A stretch of DNA of 61,219 nucleotides, from assembly GCF_000332155.1 (NCBI RefSeq), contig NZ_KB235903.1, positions 2,112,209 through 2,173,427 of the forward strand, given 5' to 3'. Shown piece after piece: positions 37,578-40,813 of the stretch (within the stretch, counting starts at the first letter, position 1; every line of letters begins with the position of its first letter). The translations under genes were made by a program, and so were the position numbers. Source of the DNA: Kamptonema formosum PCC 6407. GTDB lineage: Bacteria > Cyanobacteriota > Cyanobacteriia > Cyanobacteriales > Microcoleaceae. The notes under the pieces were generated by a model. That model saw nothing but the letters and a program-made list of their open reading frames with translations, did not search any database and had not been told where the DNA came from.

Positions 37578-37853
37578 ATGCGTTTCACCTGGGATGAAAA
37601 TAAGCGACAATTAAATTTGGGCAAACACGGATTTGATTTTGTGGATGCTTCCCAGGTCTTCGAGGGTGCAACATTCACGTTTGAAGATAATCGTTATACT
37701 TATGGGGAGCAGCGATTCATTACACTGGGACTGTTAGGCGGGCGTGTGGTGGTGCTTGCCCATACGGAAGTTGGGGATGAAATTCGTGTCATTTCAATGA
37801 GGGAGGGAACTAAACGTGAGCAAATCATTTTCTTCCAAAGCCTCTCAAACTAA
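37578..37853 (+). CDS. brnT: BrnT-family toxin
   Basis: A 91-residue protein of the BrnT family, RelE-like ribonucleases that stop translation unless bound by BrnA. The N-terminal FTWDENKRQLNLGKHGFDFVDA block and the later GEQRFITLG and IRVISMREGTKRE segments are typical, the latter holding candidate catalytic Arg/Lys residues. It overlaps the antitoxin gene by 38 bases, with the toxin first, as is usual for brnTA. It is likely autorepressed by the complex, but no operator was identified. Confidence 0.93.
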   Translation: MRFTWDENKRQLNLGKHGFDFVDASQVFEGATFTFEDNRYTYGEQRFITLGLLGGRVVVLAHTEVGDEIRVISMREGTKREQIIFFQSLSN

Positions 37854-38103
37854 TTGGGAGCGAATTGATACTATCCAAGATGAGGATATTGACCTTTCTG
37901 ACATCCCAGAAGTGACGGAAGAACAGATGAGGAATGCGGTACTACGGGTTGGCGGAAAACCTGTTGAACGAGGTCAGCGGCGGGTAGATATTCTCCTAGA
38001 TGCTTTCATCGTGGAATACTTCGAGGGAAAGGCAGGTAAGCAGGGATATCAAGCGCTGATTAATCAGGCGTTGGCAGAGTATATTCATAACCATGACCCT
38101 TGA
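37816..38103 (+). CDS. brnA: BrnA-family antitoxin
   Basis: A 95-residue antitoxin partner of BrnT. The N-terminal part is acidic (IQDEDIDLSDIPEVTEEQM) and should wrap the toxin. The C-terminal half (about residues 52-92, RRVDILLDAFIVEYFEGKAGKQGYQALIN) fits a ribbon-helix-helix DNA-binding fold. The start is GTG with GGGAGGGAAC upstream, inside brnT, so translation is coupled. A second, later start cannot be excluded. Confidence 0.9.
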   Translation: MSKSFSSKASQTNWERIDTIQDEDIDLSDIPEVTEEQMRNAVLRVGGKPVERGQRRVDILLDAFIVEYFEGKAGKQGYQALINQALAEYIHNHDP

Positions 38104-39339: not shown

Positions 39340-39411
39340 CGATTAGCCATTAGCCATTAGCCATTACCAATTACCAATTACCAATTACCGATTACCGATT
39401 ACCAATTTTTA
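39337..39411. repeat. ATTAGCC and AATTACC arrays
   Basis: Four ATTAGCC units run into about six AATTACC/GATTACC units between two convergent genes. They supply the stop codon of the DUF2288 gene on the left and of the YdcF gene on the right. Confidence 0.95.
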
Positions 39412-39988
39412 ATTGCCCAAGGCTAGCTCCTGTATAACCAGTAGTTAACCAAACAATAGCTCTAACACCATCTCTAACTACTTTTTCAATTGGTTCTGGG
39501 GCTCGTCCAGAGGGAACGGGGATCGCCTTAAAACTAATACCTCTACTACCTAAAACTATCTCCCCAATAATCCGAGCTCGCCTCATGTGGTCGTCAGAAG
39601 TAATCAAATAAACACTTTGAATGCCTTGAGCTTTTAACTCATCCACTAGGGTTGTAAAATTAGTCACCGTATCCACAGCTCGGTAATCTAGATGTAAACG
39701 CTCTGGATCGATCCCGGCCTCCGCAAATACCCATTCTGCATATTCTGGATTGCTCCCAGAAGATACCCAGATAGGCAATTGAGGATGTTCGCGGGCAAAT
39801 TTGGCTGCAAACACCTCTCGCTCCGCAGCGCCCCCTAGTACAAATAAAGCCTGGGGTTGCTCCCAATAACTTTTGATTTGATTAAACCCAAACCAACACA
39901 CAATCAAAAGCACCATCAGAAACCAACTTTTACTAGAAGTTTTAGAACTTCGATAACGTCGCCTGCTTAAACCAATATTCAACCGCAT
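39392..39988 (-). CDS. YdcF/ElyC-like (DUF218) membrane protein
   Basis: A 198-residue protein with one N-terminal transmembrane segment (about residues 18-35) and a DUF218 domain of the YdcF/ElyC type: ALFVLGGAAEREVFAAKFA, the SSGSNPEYAEW loop, and VYLITSDDHMRRARIIGE with the conserved His/Arg. Family members are linked to envelope polysaccharide or lipid carriers. The frame extends to 40069, but the ATG at 39988 puts the membrane helix at the normal place. The last residues (KIGNR) and the stop come from AATTACC/GATTACC heptamers. Confidence 0.82.
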   Translation of the reverse strand: MRLNIGLSRRRYRSSKTSSKSWFLMVLLIVCWFGFNQIKSYWEQPQALFVLGGAAEREVFAAKFAREHPQLPIWVSSGSNPEYAEWVFAEAGIDPERLHLDYRAVDTVTNFTTLVDELKAQGIQSVYLITSDDHMRRARIIGEIVLGSRGISFKAIPVPSGRAPEPIEKVVRDGVRAIVWLTTGYTGASLGQLKIGNR

Positions 39989-40128
39989 TATATGTACAAA
40001 AACTCTGGCTAGCTGACAGAGGAGCCTTGATATAACATCCGACAGGCATACCCTACCAACAGGAATCAAAAATTAAAAATGAAGGGTATTCATTTTTAAT
40101 TTTTAATTTTTAATTCTTAATTATTTAA

Positions 40129-40444
40129 CGGGACTGGCCGGATTTGAACCGGCGACCTAGCGCTTCAGATTTGTGTGAGTTTCCCCACTCTCTGGACTAT
40201 TCCTTCACCGTAGACTTGTAGCCTTTAGGTGGTGGCCGTATGTTTAAGGAGATTTGTTTAAGCTCCTTAAAGCCAGTCTCTGCACCTTCTTTACCCGTTG
40301 TTGGGTAAAGCTTGGCTCAAGATTACCATATCTGCTGTCAGACTTAGGCTTCCTTGAGTTTGACCACATTCACTCCCGGAGTTTCCTCGCAGGGTGCCCG
40401 ATTTTTCAGGAGGCGCTTGCTCTATCCATCTGAGCCACAGCCCC
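40129..40444 (-). tRNA. trnR-CCU: tRNA-Arg(CCU) interrupted by a group I intron
   Basis: Exon 1 is 40408-40444 (37 nt) and exon 2 is 40129-40165 (37 nt). Joined, they fold as a standard tRNA: acceptor GGGGCTG with CAGTCCC and discriminator G, D-stem GCTC/GAGC, anticodon stem AGCGC/GCGCT with loop CUCCUAA (anticodon CCU), five-base variable loop, T-arm GCCGG-TTCAAAT-CCGGC. CCA is not encoded. The break falls right after U36, the third anticodon base. Without splicing the tRNA cannot form. Confidence 0.95.
40166..40407 (-). ncRNA. Group I self-splicing intron in tRNA-Arg(CCU)
   Basis: 242-nt intron. It begins after the exon's final U and ends in G, as group I introns do; exon CCU can pair with intron GGG as P1. 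The conserved core elements are visible on the minus strand: P at 40347-40361 (AAACTCAAGGAAGCC), Q at 40310-40327 (GGTAATCTTGAGCCAAGC), R at 40275-40289 (GAAGGTGCAGAGACT) and S at 40194-40205 (AAGGAATAGTCC). P, Q and R closely resemble the cyanobacterial and plastid tRNA-Leu intron (subgroup IC3). No homing endonuclease is encoded. Confidence 0.94.
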
Positions 40445-40534: not shown

Positions 40535-40813
40535 GTAACGCCGCCCTTGCTAGGGGAAGAAGGGGCTAGGGGCTAGGGGCTAGGGGCTAGGGGAAGGGGC
40601 TAGGGGCTAGGGGCTAGGGGCTAGGGAAGAAGGGAATATAGGGAATATAGGGAATATAGGGAATAAGGGAATAAGGGAATAAGGGAATAAGGGAATAAGG
40701 GAATAAGGGAATAGAATCAGCGGGTTCCAGCAATCGTAGGCGTAGCCAGCCGGAGGCATCGTGTCTTAATTGCCTTGGTGAATGCTATAATTACTCCCTC
40801 TGGGCGGCGTTAC
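40535..40813. repeat. Split palindrome enclosing GGGGCTA and AGGGAATA arrays
   Basis: GTAACGCCGCCC (40535-40546) and its exact complement GGGCGGCGTTAC (40802-40813) enclose GGGGCTA units (about 40559-40625) and AGGGAATA(T) units (about 40630-40715). The gap of 365 bases between the tRNA and the HAD gene has no ORF. The same 12-bp arms form an intact hairpin at 54701-54752. The HAD stop codon lies in the right arm. Confidence 0.85.

Follow-up and report, generated by a model that had tools for sequence, protein, structure and literature searches.

A group I intron in the tRNA-Arg(CCU) gene of Kamptonema formosum and the LAGLIDADG reading frames carried by related introns

Is the tRNA-Arg(CCU) of Kamptonema formosum PCC 6407 split in its anticodon loop by a group I intron, as the original prediction had it, and what do the corresponding introns of other cyanobacteria tell about this one? 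The window, that is the whole stretch of DNA analysed here (61,219 nt, within which the positions of the locus are numbered), yielded zero tRNAs over its entire length when ARAGORN was run without the intron option; with introns allowed, the program called a tRNA-Arg(CCU) with an intron of 242 nt and a break at ctcct/aagcg, the bounds of this call being one base wider per end than 40129-40444. An intron-blind tRNA search does miss this gene, as had been anticipated. The gene is complete and lies on the minus strand at 40129-40444. Sequence and ARAGORN agree on a 5' exon of 37 nt (40408-40444, minus strand, tRNA positions 1-36) that ends with CUCCU at U36, and on a 3' exon of 37 nt (40129-40165, minus strand) that starts with AAGCGC and runs from A37 to the discriminator G, CCA not being encoded. 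Between them, the group I intron of 242 nt (40166-40407, minus strand; RF00028, ARAGORN -i and pair counts) begins with GAAAAAUCGGGC and ends with AAAUCUG, its last nucleotide being a G, and the break falls exactly after U36, which the original prediction had placed correctly. The joined exons give a tRNA of 74 nt, in which an AGCGC/GCGCU stem is predicted to carry a loop of seven bases, CUCCUAA, across the junction; the acceptor, D and anticodon stems are all complete in the ARAGORN cloverleaf. Two tandem arrays are found just upstream of the gene, in window positions 40559-40713 (AGGGGCT repeated 9.6 times and AGGGAATA repeated 11 times), and a BrnT/BrnA toxin-antitoxin pair is encoded at 37578-38103 (PF04365, E 2e-25; PF14384, E 2e-6).

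The nature of the intervening sequence was addressed through its fold. RF00028 (Intron_gpI) matches it over the full model (1-253) with 54.5 bits and an E-value of 4.4e-11, above the gathering score of 50, so that the group I covariance check proposed with the prediction came out in its favour. Compared with 100 dinucleotide shuffles, none of which equals it, the pre-tRNA folds better than their mean by 4.6 s.d., and three structural hallmarks of group I introns are present: a P1 in which the 5' splice site is marked by a U.G, the P3-P8 core and the final G. Helices P1 to P9 were drawn by hand on the Kamptonema intron and their pairs counted in 44 intron-bearing sequences including that of Kamptonema, taken from 51 ORF-less introns shorter than 330 nt after dropping six near-duplicates and locus L163. 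In 38 of the 67 proposed pairs both partners vary among these 44 aligned introns, and 90.6% of cells pair, against 82.6% after shuffling (0 of 500 shuffles as high); the value falls to 33-45% when the partners are slid by 1-3 columns.

On the minus strand, the guide GGG (40397-40399), identical in 44 of 44 sequences, would pair with the exon CCU (40410-40408) in a three-pair P1 with the U.G at the splice site. P3 (40367-40362 with 40237-40232; 99.6% paired) encloses, within 40232-40367, P4 (40358-40353/40321-40316; 98.5%), P5 (40349-40347/40327-40325; 95.5%), P6 (40315-40314/40286-40285; 100%) and P6a (40310-40303/40296-40289; 87.6%). The guanosine-binding helix P7, made of the R and S elements (40278-40275 with 40198-40195, spanning 40195-40278), is recognised by RF00028 and invariant in 44 of 44 sequences. 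P8 (40231-40228 with 40209-40206, spanning 40206-40231) and its inner stem P8b are 100% and 93.2% paired, respectively, and P9, with its GAAA loop (40188-40184 with 40179-40175, spanning 40175-40188), is 100% paired. The outer P2 pairs poorly (61%) and is therefore drawn only roughly. Covariation shows the predicted core fold; because P1 (CCU/GGG), P6 and P7 do not vary in the 44 aligned introns, it is uninformative for these three helices, which are marked by invariance only. As to the subgroup, we presume IC3, as did the original prediction, this being a label in use for tRNA introns. The original prediction had singled out the short P1 as noteworthy, but the tRNA-Leu intron of Anabaena likewise has a P1 of 3 bp (PMC12702839, in a passage citing Zaug 1994), and a three-pair P1 is thus no peculiarity. 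With such a fold, the exon CCU would pair with the intron GGG, the guanosine bound in P7 would attack after U36, the freed 5' exon would attack after the final G of the intron, and U36 would be joined to A37, closing the anticodon loop. We infer both this reaction and the need for it from the sequence. In our view the locus is almost certainly a group I intron splitting tRNA-Arg(CCU), for which splicing is proposed: the covariance score, the intron-aware ARAGORN call and the covarying helices all bear out the prediction on this point.

The spliced 74-mer matched its own two exons at 100% and three further places at 76-80%, which are other tRNAs, and a search of the Kamptonema genome with an intact-gene pattern gave zero matches. 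The genome has 70 Rfam tRNA matches; ARAGORN, applied to 30 of these loci and to 20 further stretches covering the remaining matches, found tRNA-Arg with the anticodons ACG, CCG, UCG and UCU and no intact CCU. Thus no intact tRNA-Arg(CCU) was found elsewhere by any of these three routes, in a genome with a completeness rating of 99.99%, which also speaks for the prediction on the question it had raised of a second copy. Judged by these searches, the intron-split gene is the only recognisable tRNA-Arg(CCU) of the genome. Three other tRNA loci deserve mention. A weak tRNA-like gene (L262, G000:C6:1425209-1425278; 43.9 bits) has a six-base loop, CUCUAA, without CCU, and its anticodon is left open by ARAGORN ('Arg or Pyl'). 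An array of 27 tRNA genes occupies 4.2 kb on one strand (L243, G000:C7:1120300-1124500) and contains a tRNA-Arg(UCU) and a second tRNA-Asn(GUU), without a tRNA-Arg(CCU). Finally, the genome has a second group I intron, of 278 nt, in a tRNA-Asn(GUU) gene after U35 (84.7 bits; L001 1477-1826, G000:C6:1354223-1354503), also present in relatives of g1, g11 and G042, and the literature passages on such introns do not list it.

In the family (Microcoleaceae) the exact intron pattern is found in 57 of 61 genomes and in 11 of 11 genera, the remaining four genomes giving no match to the exact pattern. Across the class, 23 of 388 genomes match the exact intron-bearing pattern (18 of the same order, 5 beyond it), 217 match the pattern of the intact gene at no more than 3 mismatches, and 148 match neither; none of the 23 intron-bearing genomes has an intact tRNA-Arg(CCU) copy. 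The intron is stably inherited within the family and patchily present outside it. A DUF218 (YdcF-like) gene lies downstream of the Kamptonema tRNA gene (39392-40069, minus strand; Pfam PF02698), and a relative of it turns up within the fetched sequence on either side of the gene in 31 of 47 intron-bearing locus rows, a few loci being represented by two rows, against 2 of 30 intronless loci, these being the ones fetched out of the 217 genomes with an intact gene (flanks usually 1.5-2.5 kb). A plasmid collection searched with the tRNA gene of Kamptonema gave no match. Introns that ARAGORN assigned in relatives to 'Leu(CAA)' and 'Ser(AGA)' were re-read as lying in initiator tRNA-fMet(CAU) and Leu(UAA), respectively, so that new introns in Leu(CAA) or Ser are not claimed here. 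Where the program misplaced the intron of an initiator tRNA-fMet, mostly calling it Leu(CAA), the exons read GGGCT / CATAACCCG (L050, L078, L080-L082, L086, L087, L089, L093, L098-L100, L104).

The conservation in the family also bears on whether the gene is alive. It might be a dead gene whose intron no longer splices, AGG codons being read by tRNA-Arg(UCU); this tRNA is present, also within the 27-tRNA array, and might read AGG by wobble, so that splicing may not be essential. We regard a dead gene as very improbable, because the exons give a full cloverleaf, the core helices are conserved across the 44 aligned relatives, and the retention of the same junction in those 57 family genomes is unlike the drift of a dead gene.

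Several known introns resemble the one described here. Those of Alphaproteobacteria (Agrobacterium, and BbgpI of Bartonella) interrupt the same tRNA at the same site, have CCT repeats at their ends and are of similar small size (PMC7717549); the Kamptonema intron, inserted after U36 of tRNA-Arg(CCU), shares their site, although they belong to another phylum; the likeness is drawn from the published description. BbgpI splices in vivo and self-splices in vitro, and the tRNA gene that houses it had gone unannotated; the passages of the same paper on these introns describe neither an ORF nor a P7.1 hairpin. The tRNA-Leu(UAA) intron of Anabaena is likewise compact, lies in the anticodon loop and has the three-pair P1 already mentioned (PMC12702839), but in relatives the tRNA-Leu(UAA) intron follows U34 and not U36; the tRNA-Leu(UAA) of Kamptonema is intact and has no intron. 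The tRNA-fMet intron of Synechocystis PCC 6803 is another cyanobacterial tRNA intron with a protein-coding version, I-Ssp6803I (PMC1995217), which is an active PD-(D/E)XK nuclease, whereas the reading frame in relatives of the CCU intron is of the LAGLIDADG_2 type and mostly lacks the catalytic acids. In the passages of PMC1995217 on the subject, from 2007, group I introns are counted in four tRNA genes of bacteria, and chromosomal LAGLIDADG ORFs were placed in LSU rRNA introns. The relevant passage of PMC5733544 lists cyanobacterial tRNA introns in Leu(UAA) and fMet, followed by that study's own inserts of 22-49 nt in Arg(ACG), Gly and Lys; these, presented as group I introns, are in our judgement too short for a group I core. 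In the literature consulted, mostly open-access, we found neither a group I intron reported from a cyanobacterial tRNA-Arg(CCU) nor a bacterial tRNA intron reported to carry a LAGLIDADG ORF.

The CCU introns form 74 distinct sequences with one of two types of core, A (including Kamptonema) or B, and this split has full support in a tree of 72 of them (L152 and L155 missing). The joint between P7 and P3' has 4 nt in 12 of the 74 and an insert of 36-84 nt in 42; in the other 20 it is about 630-660 nt long and includes an ORF. All 11 of the 36-84-nt inserts that were folded form a hairpin. The ORFs are confined to type A cores, and the starred branches of the tree force at least two changes of ORF state; with short cores and 34 of 69 inner branches unresolved, the tree does not give the order in which hairpin and ORF were gained or lost. 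Three individual introns stand out. The 649-nt CCU intron of L177 (G247), of type B, carries in its P5 region an antisense HNH_2 ORF (PF13391, E 3.6e-10), so that the second intron lineage has an endonuclease of another kind. That of L096 (G017) has a 5' part like the type A introns of its congeners, a P4-P7 region of type B and no hairpin, and, judged by eye, is probably a chimera made by gene conversion. In the 394-nt CCU intron of L043 (G005), a long GC-rich insert occupies the P8 region.

The Kamptonema intron has no ORF. The CCU introns of three genomes are otherwise taken up by the coding sequence of a LAGLIDADG-type protein. Both copies that were scanned match the whole of PF03161 (E 1e-33 and 6e-33). 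When one genome per GTDB species was searched with five copies as queries, 19 named cyanobacterial ORF loci came up, among them those of Oscillatoria (PCC 10802, L148), Symploca, Microcoleus, Spirulina (CCY15215, L152) and Desmonostoc, a lower bound since short exact peptides were required; of these, 18 are situated in a tRNA-Arg(CCU) intron, and the remaining one is cut by a contig end. A search with the ORF protein gave matches in 12 genomes, in nine of them distant ones (E 2e-8 to 1e-5), and ARAGORN -i found no tRNA at the ten distant-match loci; viral contigs searched with the ORF gave no relatives. Structural modelling of L142 gave high confidence (mean pLDDT 89.9), and the model is nearest to I-WcaI and I-SceI, the bI3 maturase ranking ninth. 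By family, in the two copies scanned, and by fold, in the L142 model, the product is thus of the LAGLIDADG homing endonuclease kind. In 8 of the 21 distinct ORF loci (one frameshifted and one cut included), AUA stands in place of AUG (L141, L142, L143, L148, L151, L156, L157, L123), directly after a ribosome-site-like stretch, and L141 has no other in-frame start codon upstream; a conserved AUA start is possible.

The catalytic residues of this protein were compared among 17 intact named ORFs, leaving out L156 (frameshifted) and L157 (cut). The motif-1 acid, positioned by motif only, is D in 7 of 17 and E in one; the motif-2 acid, positioned by alignment to D145 of I-SceI, is D in 3 of 17, and a single copy (L150) has the aspartate in both motifs. 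D145, which we take to be the second catalytic aspartate of I-SceI, aligns with a K in the query ORF. Beside the catalytic positions, L19, L20, G21, W112, F113, D115 and G117 are invariant in all 17. In seven close ORF pairs, which share members and are thus not independent, and with codons overlapping RNA structure included, pN/pS is 0.10-0.40, each below 1 (Fisher p 0.0079 to 5e-17), and the codon changes indicate purifying selection on the ORF. That selection preserves a protein whose nuclease site is mostly gone suggests a splicing maturase. We take bI3 to be such a LAGLIDADG maturase, one that aids group I splicing. I-AniI is likewise an intron-encoded LAGLIDADG protein aiding group I splicing, according to a passage of PMC1995217. 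Both come from fungal mitochondrial mRNA introns, whereas the CCU ORF sits in bacterial tRNA introns and its maturase activity would be deduced from selection and missing residues. The protein could instead be a homing endonuclease of the ordinary sort, to which the intron owes its mobility, the degenerate copies being on their way out, as its LAGLIDADG_2 family and I-SceI-like fold, the frameshifted L156, the patchy distribution outside the family and the two aspartates of L150 would have it; with the motif-2 aspartate in 3 of 17 copies and both in one, some ORFs may indeed still cut DNA. Yet the catalytic positions vary while their seven neighbours do not, and five close pairs in which both members lack the motif-2 aspartate still have pN/pS of 0.10-0.40, including L152/L155, which lacks either aspartate (0.24, p 5e-17). 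We therefore consider an ordinary endonuclease unlikely, though by no means negligible, as a description of the whole set.

What links the ORF to the ORF-less intron of Kamptonema is the P7.1 hairpin in J7/3 (40271-40263 with 40251-40243, spanning 40243-40271, minus strand), 73.6% paired, absent from 10 of the 44 aligned rows and showing changes on both sides in 5 of its 9 pairs. The original prediction had the intron core right and left unmentioned this hairpin, which, bearing AAGGAG in its 5' arm (40268-40263), is more unusual than P1. Where the intron bears an ORF, AAGGAG or GGGAG is often found in the 5' arm of P7.1, followed after about 8-10 bases by the start codon, and the 3' arm consists of the last codons of the ORF; AAGGAG in Kamptonema stands where the LAGLIDADG ORF of relatives has its ribosome site. 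Of the 17 intact copies, 14 have a frame that continues across P3' and ends within P8; that of L151 ends earlier, and those of L153 and L154 extend past P8. Arms from the same intron pair with a mean of -12.7 kcal/mol against -9.0 when swapped, and 0 of 2000 shuffles are as stable (n=20, kinship uncorrected). With the ribosome site in the 5' arm, the last codons in the 3' arm and the stop usually in P8, translation and core folding would exclude each other: ribosomes on the ORF would hold the core open, and the ribosome site would be masked once the 3' half of the intron is made.

The hairpin of Kamptonema (UUUAAGGAG/CUCCUUAAA) has, by eye, the same arms as the ORF-bearing L123 and L142, with no ORF, and whether it is the scar of a lost ORF or is older than the ORF is about evenly balanced. 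That P7.1 is a structural hairpin of long standing, the ORF having entered its loop later, and that the Kamptonema intron never had an ORF, is a serious possibility that we still hold somewhat short of probable: a hairpin-length insert without ORF occurs in 42 of 74 distinct introns, and in the 11 inserts folded the arms pair whatever their sequence. Since AGGAG, GGGAG or AAGGA is found in the 5' arm of 15 of these 42 inserts, against 14 of 20 ORF-bearing introns, the hairpin could predate the ORF. On the other side, 12 of 74 introns have only 4 nt at the joint, and the ribozyme presumably works without the hairpin; moreover, AAGGAG in Kamptonema sits where the ORF has its ribosome site, and the 3' side resembles, by eye, the last codons of the ORF. 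The most far-reaching proposal, which we hold to be less likely than not, is a history in which the CCU introns carry or carried a LAGLIDADG maturase that no longer cuts DNA and is governed by the P7.1 switch, while the Kamptonema intron has shed its ORF, kept the hairpin as a scar and splices the only tRNA-Arg(CCU) of the cell without a protein of its own. To our knowledge, a LAGLIDADG maturase in a bacterial tRNA intron would be the first known.

Taken alone, the Kamptonema intron is a further example of an already known kind of element, and its wider interest comes from the intron family that surrounds it. It adds a tRNA to the cyanobacterial introns listed in the passage of PMC5733544 cited above, and ordinary tRNA annotation would leave the Microcoleaceae seemingly without a tRNA-Arg(CCU). 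Introns with no insert, with a hairpin, with an intact ORF with or without catalytic residues, and with a frameshifted ORF coexist in this lineage, so that the route proposed here, by which a homing endonuclease becomes a maturase and the intron finally does without a protein, would be directly testable in a bacterial tRNA.
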